Source: a virus
Virus record (IMG/VR): IMGVR_UViG_3300007363_000062
Coordinates: 1 to 33,781 of that record
DNA length: 33,781 bases
Direction: 5' to 3' (one strand)
Part shown: piece after piece, positions 11,364 through 33,781 of the stretch
Numbering within the stretch: the stretch's first letter is position 1
Layout of the letters: every line of letters begins with the position of its first letter
Notes under the pieces: generated by a model
Told to the model about the DNA's origin: nothing
The model's database searches: none
What the model saw: only the letters and a program-made list of their open reading frames with translations
Made by a program: the position numbers and the translations under genes

Positions 11364-12443
11364 GTGCCCGCCCACCTGACGCCCACCCCGCACGGGGTGC
11401 AGGCCCGGCTGACGATCCGAGGGGTCCGCTACTCGCGCCACTTCCGGCGCGGGACGCCGGACTATGCCATCCAGAAGTGGCTACTCACGACGAAGCTGGC
11501 GCATGTCCAGCCGGGCGCGACAGCCGCCTCGGGGACGTTCGCCGCCGATGCCGCCGCCTACCTGGCGTCCGTCGCGGCCATGCCGACGTTCGCCACGCGG
11601 ACGCAGCACATCGAGGAGTGGGTCGCCTACTTCGGGAAGTCCCGCCGCCGGGACACGATCACGCCCGCCGAGATTGCGGCCGCGCTCCAGATGTGGCGCA
11701 CGGTCCCCCCGGCTGATGACAAGAAGCGCAACGCCATGCGCGGGCCGACGCTCTCCGCTGCCGCCGTGAACCACCGCCGCACGGCTCTCATGCACCTGTG
11801 GAGCACGCTGGACGGCAAGCACGCGCCCAACCCCGTCCGATCGGTGCCGAAGTTCCGCCGCCCCGACGTGCAGCCGCGTGCCCTGTCGTACGCGGTGATC
11901 GGGACGATTCTCCAGCAGCTCCCGCCCGGTCCCGCGCGTGCCCGGCTCGAGGTGATGGCGCATACCGGACTCCCGCAACTCCAGATCATGCAGCTCACCC
12001 CGGCCGACATTGATCTCACGGCCAAGACGCTGACGGTGCGCGGGCGGTCGAAAGGGGCCGGGACACGGGCCAGCGTGCGCCCACTCAGCCAGGCGGCCGT
12101 CACCGCCCTGAAAGCGTTCATCGCCGCCGACGCCTGGGGCCGGTTCGATCCGTCCGTCCTTCGCCAGCAGTTCATGCGCGCGTGCAAGGCGGCCCAGGTG
12201 CCCCCGGTGACGCCCTACGCGCTCCGCCACAGCTACGGAACCGAGTTACTCAGGCTGACCGGCGATCTCCACGCCACGCAAGCCCTCATGGGCCACAGCA
12301 CGCCCCAGCAGACTCAGCGCTACGCGATGGGGGCGAGTGATACCCGCCTCCAGGCCGCCATTGCCGCGCTGGATAGGCGAAAGTCAGCCCCGCGTGCTAA
12401 GCGAAAGGCTAAGAAGTCGAGAAAGACTCGGGAAAAGGCCTGA
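11364..12443 (+). CDS. int: tyrosine-recombinase integrase
   Basis: 359 aa from GTG 11364. Arm and core-binding domains span about residues 1-160; the catalytic domain is about 170-325. Catalytic positions seen: K230 in GRSKGAGT, Arg II at R288 in PYALRHSYG, H311 in LMGHST and the nucleophile Y320 in QTQRYAMG. The expected first Arg (TGLR-x2-E) is replaced by Pro in HTGLPQLQIMQL (P204), and the usual His before Arg II is Tyr (Y285). The C-terminus is a basic tail. The stop is only 10 bases from the tRNA-derived attP core, the usual place for such integrases. From memory, some integrases of poorly studied bacteria also have a P here, so the enzyme need not be dead. Confidence 0.92.
   Translation: MPAHLTPTPHGVQARLTIRGVRYSRHFRRGTPDYAIQKWLLTTKLAHVQPGATAASGTFAADAAAYLASVAAMPTFATRTQHIEEWVAYFGKSRRRDTITPAEIAAALQMWRTVPPADDKKRNAMRGPTLSAAAVNHRRTALMHLWSTLDGKHAPNPVRSVPKFRRPDVQPRALSYAVIGTILQQLPPGPARARLEVMAHTGLPQLQIMQLTPADIDLTAKTLTVRGRSKGAGTRASVRPLSQAAVTALKAFIAADAWGRFDPSVLRQQFMRACKAAQVPPVTPYALRHSYGTELLRLTGDLHATQALMGHSTPQQTQRYAMGASDTRLQAAIAALDRRKSAPRAKRKAKKSRKTREKA
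12394..12413 (+). repeat. candidate arm-type integrase sites, left of the core
   Basis: GTGCTAAG at 12394-12401 and a close copy AGGCTAAG at 12406-12413, in the same orientation and about one helical turn apart. They lie inside the 3' end of the integrase gene, about 40-60 bases from the core. The same 8-mer occurs twice on the far side of the core. Repeats on both sides of a core are what arm-type binding sites look like. Confidence 0.45.
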
Positions 12444-18667: not shown

Positions 18668-19048
18668 TTATGCCTGCTCCAAGATCGTCACGCGGTCCGA
18701 TACCGCCTTGAGGTCTGTCCGTAGCTTGACGCCCTGCGCTTGCAGGATGCTAACGGTCGTCTGCGTGGAGGCCACCGCTACCTCGACGGCGTCCAACCGC
18801 GTAGACAGAATCCGCAGCGCGGACTCGGCCTTCTCGGCTCGCGCCAGCAGTCGCGCGAGCCGCTCATCTAACCGCCCGCGCTCACCGACCGCCGCCGCCT
18901 GGTAGGCCGCCAGATCGACGAGCGTGCCACCGGCTGGCGGGTCCGGCATCGTCCACGACCCGTCCGGCTGCTGGTCCGGGCCGAGCGCCCGCTTGGCGAC
19001 CACCACGCCCCCGTCCACGATCACGTAGTGCTGCGTTGCGGGCTTCAT
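18668..19048 (-). CDS. coiled-coil protein after a fibre-like gene
   Basis: 126 aa from ATG 19048, overlapping the TGA of the gene upstream (ATGA). The N-terminal part is short and globular (HYVIVDGGVVVAKRALGPDQQPDGSW). The rest is one long coiled coil (ERLARLLARAEKAESALRILSTRLDAVEVAV). The start suggests the tail-fibre assembly type in which a small domain is followed by a trimeric coiled coil. Possibly a fibre chaperone or spike part. Confidence 0.5.
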   Translation of the reverse strand: MKPATQHYVIVDGGVVVAKRALGPDQQPDGSWTMPDPPAGGTLVDLAAYQAAAVGERGRLDERLARLLARAEKAESALRILSTRLDAVEVAVASTQTTVSILQAQGVKLRTDLKAVSDRVTILEQA

Positions 19049-19611
19049 AGCACCGACACCACGCGCCAGATCTCGCTCCCAACGTCGTAGTAGAGCCAGA
19101 TGTATTCGTTCGACCCGAGCGACACATCCGCCGCGTTCGGGCACCCGAAGCGGTTGTAGTACTGGCTGCTCGCGTTGTTGTGCTTGAGCGTGACCGTGTA
19201 GTTGCCACGATTGCCAAAGATCAGTAGGCGCTTCTGCCGCTGCCCCCGGTCTAGCCCCGTGATATTCCGGTCGGCGTCCGTTTCAACCTCGACGATCACG
19301 GCATCCACCAACCCCGCCGGGTTGTAGTCGTTGACGCTCGCCGTCCACTGCGGCGGGCGCAGGCCGATCACGTGCGTCTGGTTGCCGGCCGCGTCGAACA
19401 GCCACGAGCCCTTCGTGAACGTCAGCCGCCCGTCAATCGGCAGCAGCCGATCCGTGCGCCGCGTGCTCAGGCTGTCGCACGTAATGGCGGTGTGTGCGCC
19501 CGTGTCGCCGTCGTGTTCCTGCTCGATGGTGGCGTTGACCGCCGCCAGCACGGCGTCGAGTTCCAGATCGACACCGGGCGGCAGGAGTTCCCGGAAGGAG
19601 AGGCCGATCAT
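19045..19611 (-). CDS. tail-fibre-like protein
   Basis: 188 aa from ATG 19611, overlapping the TGA of the tail protein upstream. The C-terminal half has a motif seen in many tail fibres: LLIFGNRGNYTVTLKHNNASSQYYNRF, then ADVSLGSNEYIWLYYDVGSEIWRVV. The usual form is IxNxGxxxxTLxHxxxxSxxxNRF...LxPxxxVxLxYDxxxxRW. The N-terminal half (VDLELDAVLAAVNATIEQEHDGDTG) may link to the particle. Position after the adaptor-fibre and tail genes supports a distal tail role. Confidence 0.68.
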   Translation of the reverse strand: MIGLSFRELLPPGVDLELDAVLAAVNATIEQEHDGDTGAHTAITCDSLSTRRTDRLLPIDGRLTFTKGSWLFDAAGNQTHVIGLRPPQWTASVNDYNPAGLVDAVIVEVETDADRNITGLDRGQRQKRLLIFGNRGNYTVTLKHNNASSQYYNRFGCPNAADVSLGSNEYIWLYYDVGSEIWRVVSVL

Positions 19612-21542
19612 GCCGTCTGCTCCTGTTCTTCTTGCACGTCCAGCCGGTTCACGACCCACTGCGCCGTCGGGCTGGTCACGTCCGTGATCTGGAATTGCGC
19701 GACCGTCAACTCTGAGCCCTTCAGGTGATCGAGCGGCGCGAGGATGTCCGTCTCCGAGGCCGTGGGCGAGAGGCTAATGTCGGACACCGTCGCCGTGGTT
19801 TCCAGCCCGAAGTCCCGGATGCACTTGAGCGTCACGGCCGCACTCGCCACGGCGGCCCCGCAGAGCGTCGCCGCCCGCACCTGGAATTTCTGGAGCAGCG
19901 ACCGCAGGAAGTACGGCCGCGTCGTCACCGTCGCCGTGTAGGCCGTGCCGCTATCGGTCGTCCCGGTGTCGCACAGGTGCGCGAGGGACAGCCCCTCCGT
20001 GCCAATGAGCGGCACCAGCACCAGACTCCGCGCCGTGTTGGCTTCGAGGTTGTCCGCGTAGAGGCAGGCGCACAGCGCCGAGGCCCGCGTACCCGTCCAG
20101 ACCGCCCAGCCCTTCCGCACGCCGTCCGCGAAGTCCCGCGCCAAGCCCGTATGCAGCACGATCATGGTTGTCGGCGTGTTCCCGCCGCTCACTGACAACG
20201 CCCACTGCACCTGTCGCTTGTAGGGGTAATACAGCCCCGTGCAGACGACTTTCGTGGCGTCGACGTTCAGCGTCTCCCACGTCACCCGCAGGTCATCGCC
20301 GCACCGCTTGATCCCGCCGACGCCGATCCGACACGGCCCCGCGTCCGGGTCGATGAAGTAGACGGCCGGCGAGCCCGCCGCGTCGACGCCGTTCACCACG
20401 GACCCCGGCACCGCGCCGAGCGTGTTCGAGAACTTGATCGCCGCGTAGGCGGCCTGCCGCTTGCCGGTGCGGATCAGCTTGTAGACCGCGCTCGTCTTGA
20501 ACACCCAGATCGCGCCGAGGGCCGGGGCGCTCATCCCCGTGATGGGACCGCCCTCGTAGGTGTCGAGATCGAGGAACGGGTCGGTGTCCGTCTCGAACCG
20601 CTCATCGTTGCCCACCCCGTCCGCCCCGAAGACCGGCGTCCAGCCCACGCGCGAGGCGAAGTCCGCGTCCTCCCACGAACCCGCCCACAGCAGCCGGTCC
20701 TCGTCCGTCGTCAGATACTTCGCGGAGGGAATCAGCGCGTAGTCGCCGCTATCCTCGGACAACGTGAACGCGGTATAGCCCGTCGTGTAGGCCGTCGAGT
20801 CGTCATAGGTGGCGGTGCCGACGACCGTTGTGGCGATCCGGTAGAAGTTGACGTCGTCCGTGCTGGCTTCCAACTCCCAGTGCGTTTCGCCCTCGCTGAT
20901 GGACGCGGGCTTCGTGACGCGCACGGACGCCCCCGACCCACTCGGCGTAATGCCCGTGCTGTCGGACGGCTCACTGCGGAGGACGGTGGTCCCGCCGACT
21001 TGGACCGTGTAGCGGACCCGGTAGTAGCGCGTGCCCGACAGGGTGCCGACGCCCGTGTTCGCCGTGGTGGGCGCGGACGGTTCCGCCAGCCCCACCCGCC
21101 GCATGGACGTGCCGTCCCACACATGCAGCCGGTCCACGTTGCTGTCGTAGGCAAAAAACAGCTTCCCGTGCAGCGTCACCGCCGCCCAGCGATACTGCGC
21201 CAACCCGGACAGGTTCGGCGTGTCGCTGATCGTGACTTCCGCCTGCCAGGTCGACGTCTTGCGACCGAGCGCCGCCGTGCTGGTGCCCGTCACACCCAGC
21301 AGCCACAGCTCGGACGCCGTCTCATCCGCCGTTGGCAGATGCCGATGGGCGAACGTGATCCGGTCCTTCCCGGACAGGAACGCCGGGAGGGTCACGGCGC
21401 TCGTGCCCTTGCGGCGCTCGGCCAGCATGGACGTGAACCATTCGACATTGCGCGCGAGCACGGCCTGATCGTCCGGGATGGCAATCGCCGGATCGCTGTT
21501 GTTCATGCCGCCACGAAGGCTTGTGATGGCGAGGTCGGGCAT
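19608..21542 (-). CDS. large tail protein, nozzle or hub-like
   Basis: 644 aa, ATG 21542 sharing A with the TAA of the adaptor-fibre gene (TAATG). It starts LAITSLRGGMNNSDPAIAIPDDQAVLARNVEW, a typical opening of podoviral tail or stabilisation proteins of about this length. The rest is beta-rich. A fibronectin-like segment (STRYYRVRYTVQVGGTTV in an FN3-type order) lies near residues 170-220, and repeats such as AVYKLI and AVYFIDPD look like propeller blades. It is probably the tail protein that plugs or forms the short tail, like the P22 gp10-type or T7 gp12-type nozzles. Identity below that level is uncertain. Confidence 0.68.
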   Translation of the reverse strand: MPDLAITSLRGGMNNSDPAIAIPDDQAVLARNVEWFTSMLAERRKGTSAVTLPAFLSGKDRITFAHRHLPTADETASELWLLGVTGTSTAALGRKTSTWQAEVTISDTPNLSGLAQYRWAAVTLHGKLFFAYDSNVDRLHVWDGTSMRRVGLAEPSAPTTANTGVGTLSGTRYYRVRYTVQVGGTTVLRSEPSDSTGITPSGSGASVRVTKPASISEGETHWELEASTDDVNFYRIATTVVGTATYDDSTAYTTGYTAFTLSEDSGDYALIPSAKYLTTDEDRLLWAGSWEDADFASRVGWTPVFGADGVGNDERFETDTDPFLDLDTYEGGPITGMSAPALGAIWVFKTSAVYKLIRTGKRQAAYAAIKFSNTLGAVPGSVVNGVDAAGSPAVYFIDPDAGPCRIGVGGIKRCGDDLRVTWETLNVDATKVVCTGLYYPYKRQVQWALSVSGGNTPTTMIVLHTGLARDFADGVRKGWAVWTGTRASALCACLYADNLEANTARSLVLVPLIGTEGLSLAHLCDTGTTDSGTAYTATVTTRPYFLRSLLQKFQVRAATLCGAAVASAAVTLKCIRDFGLETTATVSDISLSPTASETDILAPLDHLKGSELTVAQFQITDVTSPTAQWVVNRLDVQEEQEQTA

Positions 21543-23632
21543 TACGCCATTAGCTCCGTCAGCACGATCGTGCTGACCGCGCTGCTCAGTTGCACGCTGG
21601 CCGTCGCGATGTTCCCGGCGCTGGCGTACTGCGTTTTGTAGGCCACGGCGGAGGACGTGGCCGGGGCGTCGAGGTACGACGCACTGACCGCGCCGAAGTA
21701 GTTGCGCGCCGCCGTGCTGGTATTGCCCCCCTGCACCGAGAGCACCGCAAGGTCCGTCGAGGCCCGCACAAGCTTCAGATTGAGCCCCGTGTCGTTAACC
21801 TTCCCGCAGCCGTTCTGATGCACGTCCACCTTGACGCGGTTCGCCGCACTGGTCGGCGTGATGCTCGCCGTCAAGCCGGAATCCGCGTAGGCGCTGGACG
21901 AACTGTTCGCTTCCGTGCTGTGCGTGCCCATGACGGTCTGGATGGGCCGTCCCGGTAGCGGCACATCCGCCGTGTAGACCTGCGCCCGCGTCGGCGCACT
22001 GGCATACGTGCCCGCCGTCGCCAGCCCACTCTCGTAGGTGACATACCCGAGCACGACGTAGGCTTTCGAGGTCACCCCGGTGTCGGTGTAGAACACCTGC
22101 GCGGAATCCGCGCCCGTGCCGATAGTCGTGGACGATGCGATGCCCCACGCCCCCAACGGGTAGAGGCTCGTGCTGTTCGCGCAGTTGATGATGCCGAGGC
22201 GTACCGTCCCGGCATCGTTGAACGCGACAATCCAGGCCCGGAAGGCAACGTTATTGGACGTGCCCAGCGTGGCGGTATCTGGCACGACCACGGTGGCGGC
22301 GGCCGTAACCTGCACTTTGGTCGGCGTGCCCGTGGCGGCCGTGACATTGCGGAACCAGAGATCCACGGGGTCCGTCGCGCTCGGGGTGCCGCCGCTGTTG
22401 GACACCAGCGCCACGGTCAAGGCGTTCCCGGCCACCGACGCCGACAGGCCCCACCCCACGATGGCGTTTAGCGTGGACCCGTCCGTCACCAGCCCCGTGC
22501 CAGGCGCGAGGCCGAGCGTCGTGCGCTGATTACTCGCCGCCGCATCATCCAACAGCGCCCGGCCGGCGGCCGTGCAGGTAATCTCCTCGACATCACCCGC
22601 GCCAGCCGTGGACCGTCCCAGCAGCTTGTCCGTCGCGGAGACGTTCTGCATCTTCGCGTAGGTCACGGCATCGTTTGCGATGGTCGTCGTCCCGCTGCCG
22701 GCGCTGGCCGTTACGTCTCCGGTCAGGGCTGACCGCTGAATCCCGCCGCTGCCGGTAAACTCCAGGCCGCCGCCGACCGTGAGCTGCTCCGTCTCGCCCG
22801 TGCCGGCCGTGTCCCGGCCGATCAACCGATCGGTCGTGATGTTGCCCAGAAACTCGGCCCCGAGGTTCGCCACGTAGGGCGCATCCGCCTGTGCGACGGC
22901 GAACGGCGCGACGCCCGCGCCACGGTCGAACGTCAGCAGGCCGCTCTGTGTGTAGGACGTGCCGCCCGTGTTCCCGCTGCCGCTGCCGCCGCCACTCGCC
23001 CCCACCGTCGACGCACTCCCCTGCCGGGTCAGCGCCATCGGGGAATCGGCCAGATGGAACCGCAGGTCCGCCAGCAACTGCTCGGCGCGGTCCTGATACT
23101 GCTTGGCGAGGCCCGCCTTTTCCTTCTTGAGCAGTTCTTCCGAAATCACGAACCATGCCAGGATGTCGTGGAACGACTCCGGGAACACCGGCTCATCAGA
23201 CCCGGACAGGTCCGACAGCGTCGTCCAGCCGTCCGCTTGGAGGCTGTAGCTGCTCCCGGTGGCCGGGACGACATCGAGGCGCACCGTCACGCTGTCGGCG
23301 TCGGTGTTCTGGAGCGCCCACTTCGACGGCTGACCCGTGCCCGGCTGCGTCCCGCGCAGTTCGTGGATCGAGGTTTCCGTCAGCAGCCGGATCGCCGTCG
23401 ACGTCGTGGCGTCAATGATCCGGTCAATCTTTTCGATCTCGGTGAACGTGACCGTCGACACGCCCTCCGTCGTCGTGGTACTGCGCGTCACGAACCGCGC
23501 CGCGTTCAGCCCGAGCAGGGACGTGACCCGCCGGTAGTGCCGATTGACCGACTTGCCGACACGGGTATCCGCCTCAGTGCTGGTGAGGGACAGGTAGTCC
23601 TTAACGACGGTCTTCAGCTCTGTAAATGTGAT
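21542..23632 (-). CDS. head-tail adaptor fused to tail fibre, apparent ATC start
   Basis: 696 aa if translation begins at ATC 23632, with AGAGGG seven bases upstream. An in-frame GTG at 23491 is the first ordinary start, but 47 residues that clearly belong to the family lie before it (TFTELKTVVKDYLSLTSTEA ... VNRHYRRVTSLLGLN). Residues 1 to about 200 are a podoviral adaptor type (opening TFTEL, ending FHDILAWFVISEELLKKEKAGLAKQYQDRAEQLL). From about 220 on it is a fibre: RLIGRDTAGTGETEQL and LLGRSTAGAGDVEEI repeats, a Gly/Ser-rich linker and a C-terminal fibre domain ending STIVLTELMA. Adaptors are normally short separate proteins, so this is a fusion. The homing endonuclease upstream explains the missing normal start (see findings). 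Confidence 0.78.
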   Translation of the reverse strand: MTFTELKTVVKDYLSLTSTEADTRVGKSVNRHYRRVTSLLGLNAARFVTRSTTTTEGVSTVTFTEIEKIDRIIDATTSTAIRLLTETSIHELRGTQPGTGQPSKWALQNTDADSVTVRLDVVPATGSSYSLQADGWTTLSDLSGSDEPVFPESFHDILAWFVISEELLKKEKAGLAKQYQDRAEQLLADLRFHLADSPMALTRQGSASTVGASGGGSGSGNTGGTSYTQSGLLTFDRGAGVAPFAVAQADAPYVANLGAEFLGNITTDRLIGRDTAGTGETEQLTVGGGLEFTGSGGIQRSALTGDVTASAGSGTTTIANDAVTYAKMQNVSATDKLLGRSTAGAGDVEEITCTAAGRALLDDAAASNQRTTLGLAPGTGLVTDGSTLNAIVGWGLSASVAGNALTVALVSNSGGTPSATDPVDLWFRNVTAATGTPTKVQVTAAATVVVPDTATLGTSNNVAFRAWIVAFNDAGTVRLGIINCANSTSLYPLGAWGIASSTTIGTGADSAQVFYTDTGVTSKAYVVLGYVTYESGLATAGTYASAPTRAQVYTADVPLPGRPIQTVMGTHSTEANSSSSAYADSGLTASITPTSAANRVKVDVHQNGCGKVNDTGLNLKLVRASTDLAVLSVQGGNTSTAARNYFGAVSASYLDAPATSSAVAYKTQYASAGNIATASVQLSSAVSTIVLTELMA

Positions 23633-23636
23633 GGCC

Positions 23637-24140
23637 CTACCCTCTTACTTTCCGCGATCCAGAGAGCAACCGACTCACTGACGCACTTGAACGGTTGAAC
23701 CGTCGCGCGATGTCCACCTGAGTCACGCCCGCGCCGTGCAACGACCGCATTTCGGACAACTCTCTCGGCGTGCATCTACGGGCCAGCGTGAAGCGCCTAC
23801 GCGCCTCCACTTCCGTGCGCCTGTACGTTCTCAACGCAGCGCTGGCAGCCGCTTTGCGCCTCAGGCCTAACCATCTCCACAGCATCGCAATGACGGCTTG
23901 GCCGGCTTCAAAGGTCGTGGTCGTCCACGTCCAATACGGCTTATGGTTTGCTTTCCCGGAGTGCCTAGGCCCGTACACCGCCCCAACGCCGATAACGCGC
24001 GCGAATCTGCGCACCACGTCTTCGTCTGTTGACACAAGCTGACACCTGAGCCTGCGCCGTGTCTTACCGTCAGCAAAACACCCGACGTTGCCCTCGCCCT
24101 CGAATAACCCAGCCGCCCACGCCAGCTCCGTGAATGTCAC
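23637..24140 (-). CDS. LAGLIDADG homing endonuclease
   Basis: 167 aa from GTG 24140, overlapping the TGA of the gene upstream (GTGA). The LAGLIDADG motif is at residues 6-17 (LAWAAGLFEGEG, acidic E16), followed by the usual strand and helix (RCQLVSTDEDVVRRFARVIGVG) and NHKPYWTWTTTTFEAGQ. The C-terminal end is a small helix-turn-helix (VTQVDIARRFNRSSASVSRLL). One LAGLIDADG motif implies a homodimer. GC is somewhat lower than around it. Its first codons (TFTEL) duplicate those of the adaptor it precedes, so it has inserted at the start of that gene. The frame and stop rule out an intein, and there is no room for a group I intron. Confidence 0.82.
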   Translation of the reverse strand: MTFTELAWAAGLFEGEGNVGCFADGKTRRRLRCQLVSTDEDVVRRFARVIGVGAVYGPRHSGKANHKPYWTWTTTTFEAGQAVIAMLWRWLGLRRKAAASAALRTYRRTEVEARRRFTLARRCTPRELSEMRSLHGAGVTQVDIARRFNRSSASVSRLLSGSRKVRG

Positions 24141-24484
24141 AGACGCACCCCATCCCGCCGCGCTTCATCGCGGAGCCGTTTCGCCCGCTGCGCCTCGCCG
24201 CTGCGCTGCCAGTCCGCCCGCACCCGCGCGTCCTTCGTGCGGTCCTCGCTGTAGACGTCCGTCCACGGCGTCAGCCCGCGCTTGAGGCATTCCTGCCGGA
24301 TTTCCGATCGCGAGTAGTAGGTGCGCGGCGTCCCGTCCTCGTGGCAGAGGCCGTGCTCGATGGTCAGCCCGCCGGGGATGTCGTCCGGCCGCACGACGTA
24401 GTGGACCGGGCGCGGTTCCAGCGGGCACAGGAACACGCCGTGCTCCCCGTGTGTGAGTGGCTGATAGCACCGCTCGCAGACCAT
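24137..24484 (-). CDS. Cys/His-rich late protein
   Basis: 115 aa, ATG 24484 sharing A with the TAA of the portal gene. It starts VCERCYQPL and has HGLCHEDGTPRTYYSRSEIRQEC, then PWTDVYSEDRTKDARVRADW. The Cys/His pattern suggests a zinc site. Proteins with the GTPRTYYSRSE and YSEDxTKDAR segments are found beside phage portal and adaptor genes, but have no assigned role. Perhaps it helps portal or adaptor assembly. Inferred only from position. Confidence 0.58.
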   Translation of the reverse strand: MVCERCYQPLTHGEHGVFLCPLEPRPVHYVVRPDDIPGGLTIEHGLCHEDGTPRTYYSRSEIRQECLKRGLTPWTDVYSEDRTKDARVRADWQRSGEAQRAKRLRDEARRDGVRL

Positions 24485-26445
24485 TACGCGCCTCCGTCGG
24501 CCTGTCTGCGCTCGATGCGCGGGGCCGAGTCCCAGTTCGGGTTAGCGATGCCGGGTGTCTGCGGGTCGGACGGCTGACCGGGCACCGGCTCCGGCGTCGG
24601 CAGCGTCAGGTTGACCCCGAGCAGCTCCAGCGCCTGCATGAGCTTCTGGGCGGCCTGCACGTCCTCCGGCGTCGGGGCCTGCTGCGTCCGCATCAGCGTC
24701 GCCATCACCACGGGGTCGTGGAGATCGAGGGCGCTCGAGATCGACAGCTTCACCGGCTCCGGCGGCTTCGGCTGGGGATCGATGACGACCTGCGCCGGAT
24801 CTTCCCCGAGCAGTTCCCAGATCTTCGCGACGACCGGCTTGATGTTGACGTGCCCACTCTGGGCGGTCAGGTTCAGGCCCTTCGTCAGCCGCTCGATCTG
24901 CTCATCGGCCTCGAGGCGCACCGTCGCATCGACGCGCGTGTTGTAGGTGAAGGCGTTGCCGAGTTCCTGCCGCAGCGGCCCGAGCGCGTCCGGCAGCGGG
25001 AACCGGCCATAGAGCGCCAGATGCCCGGCCAGCACTTCCACGATGCCGAGGAAGAAGCGGCTGACCTTGTCCTGCTCCTGCCCCACGCGGCGCTGGAAGT
25101 TCCGCTCGATGATCCCGGCCTCTCGGGCGCTGCGCTCGCCCGCCGCAAAGGCCCCGGCCTGGTTCGTGCCGACCTGCCAGATCTCGGTGAGGTCGCCCTT
25201 GATGACGCGGTCAAACTCGAACCGCTCGGCCGGGTAGGACGCACGGGCCACTTCACCGATGGCGCGTTCTCCCGCACCGTTGATGCCGATGAAGCCCTGA
25301 AAATCGCCCTTTTCGAGCTGGTTGCGGGTGTTCGGCCCGACGCGGTTCGTGTCGAACCACCGGATCGGCGTCGAGTGCTTCCGCTGCTGGACCATCGCAT
25401 CGCGCGAGGCTTCCAGCTCCTCCACCTGGAACCGGCCGACCGACGAATCGGACGGCGGCAGCGCGTCGTCGCTGATGTAGGTGAGCGTGAGAATCCGAAT
25501 CGGATTCTTCACGACACCGATCAGCCGGCCGTCCTCGAGCCGCGCCTGCGCCCGATACGGCTCGTTGATGACCGGCTCCTCGAGGCCGTCGACAAACACC
25601 ACACGCTGGAGCGCCGAGAAGCTGGTTTCCTCGGGGTGGTAGTAGTGCCGCCAGTAGAACACCTGCGTGTAGTTGACGACGTCGGTGTCTTTGAACGCGA
25701 GGGAGTCCGAGTTCAGGCTGTGCGTCGTCCCGCTGGCCCGACGATCCGTCTGGAGCACCTTCTCCTTAACGTCGTCGGTCAGGCCGAGATTCGACACGGC
25801 CTGCGCCCACGTCATCCGGCCTTCTTCGCCCAGCCACCGCGCCTGGTCGTAGGTGCTGCCGGTGAAGTCGTCCGGGATCAGCAGGTCCGCCGGGGAGATG
25901 CGCTGCGCGAGATACCGGACGTCGGTGGGGGCGTCGACCTCCACCATCGGGATCTCGATGGCCCCCTGCATGAGCAGCGCCTGCTCCTGCGGGCTGAGCG
26001 TCGCCGGGTCGACTTCCGGCACCTGGCGCTTTTCCGTCTTGATCTCGCACGACACCAGCACGCCCGCGATGCCCGAGGCGTTGATGACGTCCGCGAGGCA
26101 TTCCTCGATGGTGGCCCCGATGGCGGCCTGCCCGACCACGTCGTTCAGTTCGCGGCCAAAGACCTGCACGGCCTCGGCAAACCGCTCATCCCGTGGCGTG
26201 AGGCGGACTTCCGGCGTCTGGGAGTAGAGCTGCGCGATCTTGGCTTTGGTGAGCGGCCAGTCCTGATTGACCGAGATGCCCCGGCTTTCCCGAATGGCGA
26301 TCCGGTCGGCGGCGTCGCGCGTCTTACTGATCGACCCCTTGCGGAGATCGACGTTCTCCTGCCACTCCGACACGCGGTCGTCGCGGCGCTTCTTGGCTGC
26401 CGCGATGCGATGCTGCCACGCGGCCCACGGCGTCTGCTCGCTCAT
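24484..26445 (-). CDS. portal protein
   Basis: 653 aa, a length usual for podoviral portals. It starts with a charged helix (WQHRIAAAKKRRDDRVSEWQENVDLRKG). The portal body follows: SVNQDWPLTKAKIAQLYSQTPEVRLTPRD, FYWRHYYHPEETSF, PRIRW-like loops and the wing or stem region. The C-terminus is helical and Gln-rich (TPEDVQAAQKLMQALELLG) and Pro-rich at the end. The VNQDWPLTKxKIxQLYSQTPEVRLTP stretch is characteristic of this portal family. It makes the dodecameric ring that receives the terminase and the adaptor. It lies well downstream of the capsid gene, an unusual gene order. Confidence 0.85.
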   Translation of the reverse strand: MSEQTPWAAWQHRIAAAKKRRDDRVSEWQENVDLRKGSISKTRDAADRIAIRESRGISVNQDWPLTKAKIAQLYSQTPEVRLTPRDERFAEAVQVFGRELNDVVGQAAIGATIEECLADVINASGIAGVLVSCEIKTEKRQVPEVDPATLSPQEQALLMQGAIEIPMVEVDAPTDVRYLAQRISPADLLIPDDFTGSTYDQARWLGEEGRMTWAQAVSNLGLTDDVKEKVLQTDRRASGTTHSLNSDSLAFKDTDVVNYTQVFYWRHYYHPEETSFSALQRVVFVDGLEEPVINEPYRAQARLEDGRLIGVVKNPIRILTLTYISDDALPPSDSSVGRFQVEELEASRDAMVQQRKHSTPIRWFDTNRVGPNTRNQLEKGDFQGFIGINGAGERAIGEVARASYPAERFEFDRVIKGDLTEIWQVGTNQAGAFAAGERSAREAGIIERNFQRRVGQEQDKVSRFFLGIVEVLAGHLALYGRFPLPDALGPLRQELGNAFTYNTRVDATVRLEADEQIERLTKGLNLTAQSGHVNIKPVVAKIWELLGEDPAQVVIDPQPKPPEPVKLSISSALDLHDPVVMATLMRTQQAPTPEDVQAAQKLMQALELLGVNLTLPTPEPVPGQPSDPQTPGIANPNWDSAPRIERRQADGGA

Positions 26446-26964: not shown

Positions 26965-27561
26965 TTAGTGCGTCACACGCGAGGCGTGGACGCTGTATCC
27001 GTCGCCGCCGATGCCGGGCACCGGGCGGGTGTAGCCGTGTGCGGTGAGCCAGTCCGTGATCGCGTCGGTGTGCTGCACATACTCGAACCACAACAGCGGG
27101 CGGGACGTCGTAATCAGCCGCTCCGCCCCGCGCCACACGTCGACTTCCGCGCCTTCCACGTCCAGCACTAGCGCATCCACGGGGTCCGCGATGACGTCAT
27201 CGAGGCGGACCTGCGGGATGTCGCCCGCCCCCTCGACGCGCCAGAGGCCCGCCTGCGCCTTCGGACGAGTCAGCCCGACCCGCCCCGGCACCGATCCGAG
27301 CGCCGCCGCCGTCACTGTGATCGCCGGCCAGTCCGCCACGTTGGTCTGGAGCGCCGCGACGTTGGCTGGCTCCGGTTCGAACGTGTAGACCCGCGCGAAG
27401 TAGAGGGACAGCGCCAGCGGCCACAGCCCCGCACAGCCCCCGGCCTGCACCACGACCCCATGCCCGGCCGACCGCTCCGCGATGGCAATCGCCGCGACCT
27501 GCGCCGTTACCCACTTCTGGTGCGGGTGCGTGAAGTCCGGCGGATAGGTCGTTACGCGCAT
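26965..27561 (-). CDS. FkbM-family methyltransferase
   Basis: 198 aa from ATG 27561, overlapping the end of the gene upstream by 10 bases. FkbM pattern: VVVQAGGCAGLWPLALSLYF (SAM motif I), YTFEPEPANVAALQTNV (motif II), DALVLDVEGAEVDVWRG and LLWFEYVQHTDAITDWLTAHGY. These enzymes add a methyl group, often to sugars. Set among virion genes, it could modify a sugar on the capsid or on the host surface, as in phages that carry glycan genes. The acceptor is unknown. Confidence 0.85.
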   Translation of the reverse strand: MRVTTYPPDFTHPHQKWVTAQVAAIAIAERSAGHGVVVQAGGCAGLWPLALSLYFARVYTFEPEPANVAALQTNVADWPAITVTAAALGSVPGRVGLTRPKAQAGLWRVEGAGDIPQVRLDDVIADPVDALVLDVEGAEVDVWRGAERLITTSRPLLWFEYVQHTDAITDWLTAHGYTRPVPGIGGDGYSVHASRVTH

Positions 27562-28214
27562 TCCGCCATCGCCTCGGGCATCCGCTCCCGCTCCACGCCC
27601 ATGTCGTAGCCGTAGCGATGCGACAACGGGGGCGGGGTCGGATGCGTCACCGGGTCCAGCAACATCTCCGGCGTGATGAGATTCGACTCGCGCGTATCGA
27701 AGATGATTTCGACGCCGCGCGCATTCGCCAGCCGGAGCCAGTAGAGGAACGTCCCGTGGTGCTTCCACCACTTCTGCGCCGCCTCGCCCGTGCGATCCCG
27801 GCAATACGGCTGGCCGACGCCGTAGAGAATCCAGCGGTCAAAGCCTTCCAGGAGGGCCAGCGCCGCCATGTAGTCCAACTGACAGCCGAAATAACCCGCC
27901 CCGAAGGCGTCCGTCACGGCGTCAATCGGATACGCGCGACTGGCGAGGATCGACGGGTGCCGCTCGGTGAAGTAGATCGGCCGCTCGCTGCCCTGTTTGT
28001 GGTACCACGCCAGCACATCCGGCCGCATGGCCCGGATGCCCGGATAAAACGAGTTCGGCTCGATCGCGTGAATGTCGAACCAGCGGGACCAGTCATACAG
28101 CATCCAGTCCCACGCCCGCGCACTCGTAGACTGGAGCCACAGCTCCGCGTCCGGGAAGTGGAAGCGAGGACTTTCGACCGTGTGACGATACCCACCGAGG
28201 ATGACTGCTTTCAC
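27552..28214 (-). CDS. unknown enzyme-like protein next to the methyltransferase
   Basis: 220 aa from GTG 28214. GGGAGG lies only three bases before that GTG, and it is the first in-frame start at this site. It starts VKAVILGGYRH and is rich in W, Y and H: ELWLQSTSARAWDWMLYDWSRWFDIHAIEP, WYHKQGSERPIYFTERHPS and YFGCQLDYMAALALLEGFDRWILYGVG. The N-terminal LGGY plus W-rich pattern looks like a nucleotide-binding enzyme fold (glycosyltransferase- or DUF115-like), but I cannot confirm the family. It overlaps the FkbM gene, so the two probably act together on a sugar. Confidence 0.6.
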   Translation of the reverse strand: MKAVILGGYRHTVESPRFHFPDAELWLQSTSARAWDWMLYDWSRWFDIHAIEPNSFYPGIRAMRPDVLAWYHKQGSERPIYFTERHPSILASRAYPIDAVTDAFGAGYFGCQLDYMAALALLEGFDRWILYGVGQPYCRDRTGEAAQKWWKHHGTFLYWLRLANARGVEIIFDTRESNLITPEMLLDPVTHPTPPPLSHRYGYDMGVERERMPEAMAECA

Positions 28215-28769: not shown

Positions 28770-29714
28770 TTAGGTGAACAGCACGCCGCCCCGCGACCGG
28801 TTCCGGGTCGCGAGCTGGCACACCGAGAAGATCTTCATGTTGGACATCGCGGCGTTCACGTGGTCCTGCACCTTCCGGCGCTGACGCCACGCGGACATCA
28901 CGACGTAGAGCTGCGTGTCGGCCGTGTTGAACATCCACGCGCTGTCCGACGTGTAGGACGCCGAGAACAGGTAGGGGATGGTCTTGAACATGATCTCCGT
29001 GAAGCCACCGCTCGCGGAGTTCGTGTTCATGTACCGCTGGTTGGCCGTCAGCGCCGCCTCGTAGTTGGCCTGCATCGTGGCCGACCCGACGATCACGTTG
29101 GGCTTCTTGCCGCTCGAACCCTTCGCGCACGAGTTGTAGAGGGTCGTGTAGTCCGCGAGCAGCGTCGCGCCCGTGTCGGTGCCCCAGTCCTTGAACTGGT
29201 TCTTCCACCACGTCTCCGTGCCGGAGACGATGGTGCCGACCGTGCCCGTGCCGTCCTCGGTGTAGAGGTCAACGAGCGTGTTGAAGCCGTCCGTGCCGCC
29301 CGTGGAGGCGAACAGGGCGTCCTCAATCGCGTCGTCGTGCGAGGCGAGCGCGTTGTCGACGATGGCCGACACGAGGTCGACCTTCTGGTTCTTCTCGGAG
29401 TTGACGGCTTCGTCGAAGAAGCTCCAGTTGACCGGGACCACCAGCGGAATGAAGCTGTAGGACGCGGCCGTCAGGATTTCCGTCTTGCCGGTGCTGGTGC
29501 CGGTGGAGTCGGTGGCGAGGAAGTCCGCCGCCGAATTGGCCTGGTAGTCGAGCGTGACCTGGAGGGTCGCGCCGCCCAACACCTTCTTGACGCCGCCGAG
29601 GCGTTCCAGCCCCTTCAGGAACGAGCTATCCGACCACTGGTCGGCAGCCTTGTTGCGCTCGGTAACGACGTCGTCATACGTCGCCGCCACGAGCTGAGAG
29701 AACGGTACGGCCAT
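28770..29714 (-). CDS. major capsid protein
   Basis: 314 aa, ATG 29714, with a strong site GGAGG upstream. It starts VPFSQLVAATYDDVVTERNKAADQW and continues as an HK97-fold-type coat: VKKVLGGATLQVTLDYQANS, FIPLVVPVNWSFFDEAVNSEK (a long helix segment), HDDAIEDALFAST and DTQLYVVMSAWRQRRKVQDHVNAAM. The length is usual. It lies downstream of the scaffold-like gene. The decoration-like gene follows. A 170-base regulatory gap lies upstream. Confidence 0.82.
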   Translation of the reverse strand: MAVPFSQLVAATYDDVVTERNKAADQWSDSSFLKGLERLGGVKKVLGGATLQVTLDYQANSAADFLATDSTGTSTGKTEILTAASYSFIPLVVPVNWSFFDEAVNSEKNQKVDLVSAIVDNALASHDDAIEDALFASTGGTDGFNTLVDLYTEDGTGTVGTIVSGTETWWKNQFKDWGTDTGATLLADYTTLYNSCAKGSSGKKPNVIVGSATMQANYEAALTANQRYMNTNSASGGFTEIMFKTIPYLFSASYTSDSAWMFNTADTQLYVVMSAWRQRRKVQDHVNAAMSNMKIFSVCQLATRNRSRGGVLFT

Positions 29715-30931: not shown

Positions 30932-32419
30932 TTACCGTCTCCTGTAGCGCAACCGGGAGGCCGATTGGCCTTCCCGCATCCACGACATCCACTCCGGCTC
31001 GCTCCGCGACTGCGGGGCGGCCGTCACACTCAACATCCCGGACGAAATCGCGAAATAGGCCAGCGCCACGATCCAGTGATCGAACTTGTGGTCGGCCATC
31101 TTCCGAGGATTCTTGTCGTCCCACCGCATTTTGGGGAGGTACTTCGCCAGCATCGGACAGCCGGGCTCGTAGATCTGGAACCGGGGCACGCCGGGCTCGA
31201 CTTCTTCCCCCAAGAGCGTATGAATCGCGTCCGCGTAGAGCACCCGGTCGTTGATCGAGCACTCAATCGGCACCCCGCCCCTCTCCAAATGGTCTTTGAC
31301 CGTCACGACGTCGCCGGTTTTCGTGTCGATCACCGGGTCGGCGTAGGTCATCACGACCGGGGTGTCCCCGACGAGTTCCCGCGTCACCGCCTGGATCTGT
31401 TTGGACAGGTCCGGGGCGATCGTCTGGAACCACGTTTCCTCGTGGAACGCGATAATCCGCTTCCCCACCACCGCCAACCAGACACAGACCGCCGGATCAG
31501 GGTAGAAGCCCATGTCAAAGGCCCGATAGACCTGAATCCACGGCACCTGCAACAGCGGGACGCCGCCGATCTTGGGTAACTCGGGGATGTAGTGGTAGGG
31601 CTGGCCGTCTTTCTTCGGATGGACCGTGAACAGCGTGCGGGCATCCATCCGCACGCCGTCGATCCACGCCGCCCGGAAGTGCGCCGGCACCCCCGCAAAC
31701 TGCTTGAGGTATTCCGCCTCGTCCAGTGAGGGGTTATCCGTCCGGTGGACCGGAATATGGCACCAGTCCGCCGGGTCGTAGGCGGGATCTTCGAGGGGAT
31801 CGACCGTCTGGTCGACGAAGTACTTGTCCAGCTCCTCGATCGACTCCCCGATGGGGTTTCCGCCGTAGATCTCACAGATGAAGTAGGGCTGCGTCCCGTC
31901 CGCCCGCTTCGCTACACGGAGCGACGGGGCCAGCGTCCGCAAATGCTCCCACTTGATCTGCGGGGCTTCATCGACAAACAGGATCGCCGCCTCCGCGCCG
32001 ACGATCTTGTCGACGTCGTTCTCGTCCTCGCACTGCCGGTAGAACCCGACCGACCCGTTGGGATACGTCGCCGTGCCCTGGTTGTCATTCCACCCGGTAT
32101 CGACCCCGCCCCACAGCGTCCGCATCTCCCCCCGGAGATAGCGCAGGTGGTTCAACCGCAAGTCCGGCATGTTCCGCCGGACCACGACGTAACTCAGCCC
32201 AGGTATCGCCATCGCGAGCGCGTGCAACACCCCGCGCCGGATCAGGAAGCTCTTGCCCCCGCCGCGATTCCCCCGCAGAAAAAACTTGCTCGGCCCCTCC
32301 CCCGTCCGCACCCGACGGGCAATCCGCTGGACCGTCGCGAGCTGCGTCCCCGGATGCGGATCGAAGAAGACCTCAGAGTGATCTCCTGAGCCGATGGTGA
32401 ACGCGTAGGGACTCGCCAG
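30932..32419 (-). CDS. terminase large subunit, apparent CTG start
   Basis: 495 aa if it begins at CTG 32419, with GGGAGG nine bases upstream. The first ordinary start in the frame, GTG 32311, would lose 36 residues with a clearly protein-like sequence (FDPHPGTQLATVQRIARRV) that includes the usual terminase start HPxQ. Motifs: Walker A RGNRGGGKS (about 49-57), Walker B AILFVDE (about 146-151) and nuclease residues in RAFDMGFYPDPA (about 302) and KFDHWIVALAYF near the C-terminus. It is the ATPase and nuclease that packages DNA. No small terminase subunit was identified. It starts within a few bases of the stop of the truncated gene. Confidence 0.9.
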   Translation of the reverse strand: MASPYAFTIGSGDHSEVFFDPHPGTQLATVQRIARRVRTGEGPSKFFLRGNRGGGKSFLIRRGVLHALAMAIPGLSYVVVRRNMPDLRLNHLRYLRGEMRTLWGGVDTGWNDNQGTATYPNGSVGFYRQCEDENDVDKIVGAEAAILFVDEAPQIKWEHLRTLAPSLRVAKRADGTQPYFICEIYGGNPIGESIEELDKYFVDQTVDPLEDPAYDPADWCHIPVHRTDNPSLDEAEYLKQFAGVPAHFRAAWIDGVRMDARTLFTVHPKKDGQPYHYIPELPKIGGVPLLQVPWIQVYRAFDMGFYPDPAVCVWLAVVGKRIIAFHEETWFQTIAPDLSKQIQAVTRELVGDTPVVMTYADPVIDTKTGDVVTVKDHLERGGVPIECSINDRVLYADAIHTLLGEEVEPGVPRFQIYEPGCPMLAKYLPKMRWDDKNPRKMADHKFDHWIVALAYFAISSGMLSVTAAPQSRSEPEWMSWMREGQSASRLRYRRR

Positions 32420-32420
32420 G

Positions 32421-33781
32421 CTATTGGTCCTCCCGGACCTGCACGGAGCCCAGCACGTAGGTCGCGGTGCCGGTGACGGCCCGCGCAGCGAGCGTCAACA
32501 CCTCGCCCGGCTGGAGCAGCAATTCGGCATCGCTCAGGGGGAAGTTGCCGCCCCCACTCTGCCCCAGCATGAGCGTCGTCTCGATCTGCTCATTGGACGC
32601 GACCGTGCACGTCGTCGCGCCCTGATCCCACTCGGTGACGCTGTTGGTGGAAAACGCCGAGAAATTGACCGGCCCCACCAGTGTGGGATTCCGGAGGAGC
32701 GCGAACGCGACCGGCGTCGCGTCATCATGCGAAGCGGAGAGCGACAACACGCGCACGACGGCCTGATTGGGCCGCGCCGCCACGGTCAACCCGTTCCTGA
32801 TCGAGAACAGCGGATAGTAGGTGCTGGCCGTGGAGCCGACCAACCCATTGGTTTCCCGCTGAAACGAGCCCCGCGGCCCCACCAGCCGGATCTCCCCTTC
32901 AATGAAGCCCGCGAAACTGGCGACCGAGACCGCGACATTCGTCGTCGACCCCGCCGAATAGGCCGTCATCGTGAACGGAAACGACGGCTGGGTGAACGTG
33001 ACCCCCGTCCGGCTATTCGGGAAATTGAACGTGTGGCAGGTGACGAAGTCGGCATTGTTCCCGCCCTCGTCCGGCACCTCCACCTGACACGTCACCGTGC
33101 CAAAGCCCAGATACTGCACGCCGATCTGAAACACGTTCCCTTTGGACGGGTCCAACTGAAAGCGCGTCGTATCCGTGCCATCGCACCGGTCGCCATTCCA
33201 GTCCGACTGCGGCACCCAGGTATCCGTCGAGGCCACGCCCGCGACGGTTTCCACGTCCGCCCCCGCCGCCGGGACGCCCGCCCCCGTTTGCGCGAGGCTG
33301 AACGTGCCACTTTTCGGCCCCGCATCCGAGGCCAGGAACACCACCGTCGCCCCCACCGCTGACGCCGTCCAGCCCGGAAACGTCCCCAGACTGATCTCGT
33401 ACGCGGTGCGCGTCGTGCTGCCGTTATTGGTCGCCGTCACCGTCACCGTGGACGTGTCCGGCAGCGTCACCACGTACTCATTCGTCGCCGTGGACGCCGT
33501 CGTCACCGTGAGCGTGTGGATCTCCCGCACCCCCCCCGTGACATGCAACAACCCGAAGCTCGTCCCGTTGTAACCGAAATAAATCCCCGACTCGGACGTC
33601 CCATACCCCGCGACCACAATCGACGCCGCCACCGGGGCCGACCAGACCGCCGTAAACCGCCCGACGACCCCCTGCCCCGGCCGATACCGCAACCGCCGCC
33701 GACTCTGGAGCGTCCCGTAGGAATACGCCGTCGTCCCCGTCGACACCGTAAAGAGATTGTTCGCGACCGCCGCCCCCCCCC
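32421..33781 (-). CDS. structural protein, 5' end beyond the window
   Basis: The frame is open from the right edge to TAG 32423-32421. A GTG at 33746 is a possible start, but in-frame sequence before it (AVANNLFTVSTGTTAY) reads on without a stop, and the opening SYGTLQSRRRLRYRPGQG also continues from it. So the gene is truncated at its 5' end. Beta-rich: FTAVWSAPVA, LTVTTASTATNEYVVTLPDTSTVTV, ASDAGPKSGTFSLAQ, GVASTDTWVPQSDWNGD and FQLDPSKGNVFQIGVQYLG. Proteins with the SKRxLRYRPGQ opening and PxKxNVYQI segments are found among virion proteins of several phage groups (from memory). A decoration or minor structural role is likely. Confidence 0.72.
   Translation of the reverse strand, partial: GGAAVANNLFTVSTGTTAYSYGTLQSRRRLRYRPGQGVVGRFTAVWSAPVAASIVVAGYGTSESGIYFGYNGTSFGLLHVTGGVREIHTLTVTTASTATNEYVVTLPDTSTVTVTATNNGSTTRTAYEISLGTFPGWTASAVGATVVFLASDAGPKSGTFSLAQTGAGVPAAGADVETVAGVASTDTWVPQSDWNGDRCDGTDTTRFQLDPSKGNVFQIGVQYLGFGTVTCQVEVPDEGGNNADFVTCHTFNFPNSRTGVTFTQPSFPFTMTAYSAGSTTNVAVSVASFAGFIEGEIRLVGPRGSFQRETNGLVGSTASTYYPLFSIRNGLTVAARPNQAVVRVLSLSASHDDATPVAFALLRNPTLVGPVNFSAFSTNSVTEWDQGATTCTVASNEQIETTLMLGQSGGGNFPLSDAELLLQPGEVLTLAARAVTGTATYVLGSVQVREDQ

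Follow-up and report, generated by a model that had tools for sequence, protein, structure and literature searches.

Introduction

Where the structure of a short-tailed phage has been solved, one protein forms the joint between head and tail and another the fibre that binds the host. The Escherichia phage SU10 (Kuravirus) has an adaptor dodecamer, gp11, between portal and nozzle that offers six docks for trimeric fibres of gp12 (PMC9509320), and an adaptor dodecamer is also the fibre dock in the T7-like phage P-SCSP1u (PMC9509320, PMC10575957). In the T7-like adaptors and fibres (T7 gp11; gp22 and gp28 of the cyanophage P-SCSP1u), the ring adaptor has a helix bundle and a beta fibre-dock domain, and the fibres sit at the adaptor-nozzle junction (PMC10575957); these fibres are trimers apart from the adaptor, and each has an N-terminal domain of its own for docking. 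The C-terminal embracing loop of the SU10 adaptor is wedged between the portal clips (PMC9509320), and an equivalent C-terminal embracing helix in P-SCSP1u touches portal and capsid (PMC10575957). In the SU10 genome the fibre gene directly follows the adaptor gene, with a gap of 9 bp.

The window analysed here is a whole linear virus record of 33,781 nucleotides with 66% G+C (IMG/VR record IMGVR_UViG_3300007363_000062). A sequence-only reading of it had singled out one gene, at 21542-23632, as a head-tail adaptor fused to a tail fibre, and had seen two oddities in it. That adaptor and fibre are normally separate proteins is correct, and the covalent link is unusual; fibres placed at the neck, in contrast, are normal in SU10 and P-SCSP1u, where they sit on the adaptor (PMC9509320, PMC10575957). 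Fibre attachment to the adaptor being already known, what is unusual is the covalent fusion, which begins at the very C-terminus with which adaptors of known structure grip the portal. We found no report of an adaptor-fibre fusion in the open-access literature searched.

The fused gene

The gene is one uninterrupted open reading frame on the minus strand, translated from 23632 to 21542 as 696 residues plus a stop. Its coordinates had been given correctly, with the strand to be added; a plus-strand reading of the same interval contains stops. The gene and its regions are as follows.

21542..23632, minus strand: adaptor-fibre fusion gene, 696 aa plus stop (same ORF in a second contig, L001)
23039..23632, minus strand: head-tail adaptor domain, residues 1-198 (PF24175 SU10_adaptor, E 9.1e-12; AlphaFold2 pLDDT 90; Foldseek matches to podovirus adaptor chains)
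22940..23038, minus strand: Gly/Ser-rich linker, residues 199-231, 33 residues (Gly/Ser fraction; pLDDT about 30)
22451..22939, minus strand: fibre shaft-like region, residues 232-394 (two GRxTAGxG segments, DUF5907 repeat; 80% identity to L004 over 231-353)
21545..22450, minus strand: exchangeable fibre tip module, residues 395-696 (L055 58%, L056 61%; MEP402 gp57 45%, HTVC026P gp57 39%)

Nothing interrupts the frame between 23644 and its stop codon at 21542-21544, the 696 residues being counted from codon 23632. No stop or frameshift lies at about residue 200-220, the place at which one had been named as fatal to the fusion. A second IMG/VR contig, L001 (IMGVR_UViG_3300025635_000362; L001/L003), carries the same ORF and is 99.98% identical to the window over 11.5 kb, the whole ORF included, with two substitutions of which one is inside the ORF; because of this identity a sequencing frameshift is very unlikely. 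For a free fibre the window ORF offers one weak, non-conserved internal start, GTG at codon 254.

When searched alone, residues 1-198 match PF24175 (SU10_adaptor, the Pfam family named after SU10 gp11) with 46.3 bits against a cutoff of 27 (E 9e-12; profile positions 2-182 of 194), and the control, SU10 gp11, scores 103.6 bits. The family is matched by seven of the ten alignment members, namely the window and six of nine relatives. A whole-protein Pfam scan of the ORF misses PF24175, which appears only with the N-terminus searched alone, and the lesson for annotators is that the adaptor of a fused ORF may escape such a scan. The AlphaFold2 model of residues 1-198 (pLDDT 90) has the helix bundle with beta dock domain of the SU10_adaptor fold, and each of the 15 PDB entries that Foldseek matched at E<=1e-3 is a chain of adaptor size belonging to a phage portal/tail assembly (A4, VP1, SU10, KHP30, Pa223, crAss001, B2, GP4, DEV and N4), the top matches with a probability of about 1. 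TM-scores against the solved structures are modest (0.3-0.42, rmsd about 10), which we read as domain displacement between the model of a free monomer and ring-bound chains. An hhalign comparison of the profile with SU10 gp11 alone gave no significance, and searching PDB sequences with profiles of the adaptor, portal, capsid and nozzle returned no phage relative. In structure prediction of the full protein, which had been put forward as a check, the fibre part came out with pLDDT below 50 and was left out of use.

The linker that follows is modelled with a pLDDT of about 30. Across the relatives, the Gly/Ser fraction around residues 196-232 is 0.28-0.50, and, apart from an RQ(G) stretch that recurs directly after the adaptor domain, their linkers share no cleavage motif. 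The shaft-like region holds two copies of the GRxTAGxG segment (residues 272-285 and 339-352), which are the repeated GRDTAGTGETEQL-type segments already remarked on, and a DUF5907 repeat at residues 303-351 (29.9 bits against a Pfam cutoff of 27). The tip, residues 395-696, is 58% and 61% identical to the C-termini of L055 (524 aa) and L056 (453 aa), stand-alone fibre-like ORFs of unrelated phages whose records are without this adaptor type; L056 adjoins genes that look long-tail-type. The last 136 residues (21545-21952) also resemble annotated tail-fibre genes, MEP402 gp57 (45%) and HTVC026P gp57 (39%). The same distal tip module, at 39-61% identity, is found in four proteins in which, unlike here, it is not joined to an adaptor. 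In contrast to the fibres of T7-like phages, the fibre begins after adaptor and linker, and a Pfam scan of the ORF detected no N-terminal fibre docking domain of its own, T7-type included. With repeat and tip domains in common with other fibres, the C-terminal part is, by its sequence, like a podoviral tail fibre. The proposed fusion thus holds up: a single open frame joins an adaptor in the first 200 residues (PF24175 above cutoff, a fold with pLDDT 90) to fibre-like sequence in the remaining ~490 (DUF5907 above cutoff, tip homologues at 58-61%).

Relatives and genome context

The fused gene lies in a structural region of the window, and other features of the window are as follows.

30932..32311, minus strand: terminase large subunit (phrog_2, E 1e-20)
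28770..29714, minus strand: major capsid protein (phrog_9953, E 2e-22)
24484..26445, minus strand: portal protein candidate of 653 aa (named from its size and position, without a family match; anchor for finding relatives)
24137..24484, minus strand: small conserved gene of 115 aa separating the portal candidate from the adaptor (stop codon overlapping the GTG of the endonuclease)
23637..24140, minus strand: homing endonuclease gene, LAGLIDADG/HNH-type plus C-terminal HTH (phrog_5046, E 2e-16)
19608..21542, minus strand: nozzle-like tail protein, 644 aa, after the fusion gene (named from its position and from weak similarity of its N-terminus to SU10 gp17, E 0.21)
19045-19659: fibre-like ORF, 204 aa, after the nozzle gene (weak Phage_depo_C match, E 0.008)
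11364-12443, plus strand: tyrosine integrase (PF00589), which suggests a temperate phage

Relatives were gathered by searches with the portal candidate, the capsid protein and the adaptor, near-identical contigs being counted once, and the adaptor is present in twelve lineages besides the window. Eight of these have complete fused ORFs of 335-555 aa (L004 519, L007 335, L014 414, L017 555, L018 358, L045 490, L050 481 and L082 508 aa). In L011 and L015 the frame is open for 628 and 491 aa up to the contig end and is clearly fused; L010 (248 aa) extends into the fibre start seen in L011 and then runs off its contig, and L012 (232 aa) stops in the linker at the contig end. The fusion is thus clear in 10 of the 12 related lineages, the other two being fragments that end too early. 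There is one adaptor domain per genome, window included, always within a long frame of 344-700 aa, and in L004 and L018 both PF24175 and DUF5907 score above cutoff in one ORF. An adaptor-only gene occurs in none of the 12, and two viral scans for adaptor-only relatives returned just the already-known members. Searches of bacterial genomes with the adaptor and portal profiles yielded no relatives, nor did plasmids. The conserved order is portal candidate, 115-aa gene, fused gene and nozzle-like gene, where portal and nozzle are named by size, position and one weak match; the nozzle-like gene is kept after the fused gene in L004, L014, L017, L018 and L050. The fusion is typical of a family of short-tailed bacterial viruses, which are uncultured.

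Close relatives with two separate genes had been named as evidence that would count against the fusion. No relative splits adaptor from shaft, which favours the fusion; L007 and L018 do have a shorter shaft followed by two small genes. In these two the fused gene is short (335 and 358 aa), with an extension of about 105-130 aa after the linker, and the small genes lie at 10487-11175 in L018, before the nozzle-like gene, and at 7935-8404 in L007, where the contig ends first. Some of the fibre may be encoded apart in these two, perhaps as a split fibre tip.

The adaptor domains align in 78 of 78 pairs at 36-73% identity, and the distal regions form a mosaic. Over residues 231-353 the window and L004 are 80% identical, with no significant similarity afterwards, and L017, L045 and L050 have another tip in common. 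For the same pair, window and L004, dN/dS is 0.23 in the adaptor, 0.33 in the linker and 0.11 in the shaft, so that purifying selection, as estimated from the sequences, runs through the junction. This uncultured clade has fixed the fibre to the ring and still swaps the tip as a module.

Extended adaptors also occur elsewhere. Among the best 50 predicted viral adaptor-fold proteins in BFVD, four are longer than 300 aa and align over 226 columns or fewer (330, 410, 308 and 402 aa). A0A6J5PS98 (330 aa), A0A5Q2W8Q5 (410 aa) and A0A6J5Q433 (402 aa) combine an adaptor fold spanning about 205-226 alignment columns with extra sequence, and A0A6J5S1E6 is likewise one of these 308-410 aa adaptor-fold proteins of uncultured phages, the usual size being about 200-250 aa. 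The four are possibly other fusions.

Proposed architecture and alternatives

We suggest that one protein probably serves as ring-forming adaptor, linker and fibre arm, the arm ending in a receptor-binding tip that can be exchanged. A fibre chain would come with every adaptor subunit, of which there are presumably 12, and the fibres would be covalently anchored, as opposed to the separate trimers that dock in SU10 (gp12 on gp11). SU10 uses two proteins, with 12 adaptors, six fibre trimers and a portal-gripping C-terminal loop; here there would be one polypeptide and 12 chains per ring against 18. Such a protein could have arisen by the joining of neighbouring adaptor and fibre genes, which is plausible because the SU10 fibre gene starts so close behind the adaptor gene.

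The arrangement meets two difficulties. The free portal-embracing C-terminal end is missing, its place being taken by the Gly-rich linker and then about 465 more residues; such an end belongs to the solved structures and is no part of how Pfam defines SU10_adaptor. Since the C-terminus of solved adaptors is wedged against the portal, a C-terminal fibre would need another exit path, or a cut. Moreover, twelve chains do not fit six trimers. The fibre might leave from the embracing C-terminal end of the adaptor through the 33-residue Gly/Ser linker, which would replace the embracing segment, so that the arm would exit beside the portal. Twelve chains could form 12 arms, or else six dimers or four trimers that neighbouring subunits would build through the flexible linker. 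A distinct neck design, in which each subunit of a 12-fold ring carries a receptor-binding arm from its portal-gripping end and the fibres depart in number and symmetry from the customary six trimers, is a tentative proposal to which we give somewhat less than even chances. If it is true, host binding would pull directly on the portal clamp; more generally, a product that is not cut would alter how many fibres, and with what symmetry, are to be expected, and a direct mechanical path would lead from receptor to portal.

The alternative that survives best, although we think it unlikely, is that the product is a precursor whose linker (about residues 198-231) is cut by a protease at assembly, the adaptor C-terminus then clamping the portal and the fibre docking non-covalently. 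The flexible, Gly-rich linker of every relative, with the RQ(G) stretch recurring right after the adaptor domain, would suit such a cut, as would the free C-terminal segment by which known adaptors grip the portal (PMC9509320, PMC10575957). Neither a defined protease motif nor a recognised phage protease gene was found here, however, and after a cut there would be 12 adaptor chains and as many fibre chains, a number that again does not fit six trimers.

We give rather less credence to the C-terminal part being a whisker-like collar or neck decoration, with the main receptor binder elsewhere, for example in the 204-aa ORF after the nozzle gene. The further fibre-like ORF at that position and the short extensions of L007 and L018 agree with it. 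The tip, however, is common to the distal ends of stand-alone fibre-like ORFs of unrelated phages and is swapped among relatives, a pattern expected of receptor-binding tips. That an assembly artefact or frameshift joined two genes is scarcely credible, given the near-identical second contig, the recurrence of the arrangement across related lineages and a dN/dS well below 1 through the junction.

A homing endonuclease at the adaptor start

Codon 1 of the fusion gene, its apparent start, is ATC (ITFTELK...), with GAGG 8 nt upstream, and the first 47 codons of the frame contain no ATG, GTG or TTG start. This ATC codon sits exactly where the relatives begin M/V-T-F. In the relatives the adaptor starts with (A/G)TGAC.., and this start overlaps the stop of the 115-aa gene or lies close to it; in the window the endonuclease ORF is found there, an insert that occurs in none of the relatives found. 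Its first codons are repeated at the adaptor.

23615..23632, minus strand: present first six codons of the adaptor, ATCACATTTACAGAGCTG (ITFTEL), a near-duplicate of 24123-24140

The endonuclease ORF begins GTGACATTCACGGAGCTG (VTFTEL) at 24123-24140, identical to ATCACATTTACAGAGCTG in 14 of 18 bases, and its similarity to endonucleases of other phages starts mostly from residue 4 or later. The adaptor proper starts 4 nt past the endonuclease stop. The simplest reading of these sequences is endonuclease insertion with start capture: a mobile endonuclease gene would have inserted and taken the start and first six codons of the adaptor, leaving behind a recoded copy that would start at ATC, presumably by translational coupling. 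An intron at the adaptor start was considered and rejected, the insert of about 508 bp being nearly all endonuclease ORF and giving no Rfam match, and an intein is excluded by the stop codon between endonuclease and adaptor.

Elsewhere in the structural region, an FkbM-type methyltransferase gene (26965-27804, minus strand; PF05050, E 4e-9) lies between the capsid and portal-candidate genes. The last nine nucleotides of the record, 33773-33781, are all C and fall within a structural gene that is still open, probably an assembly end.
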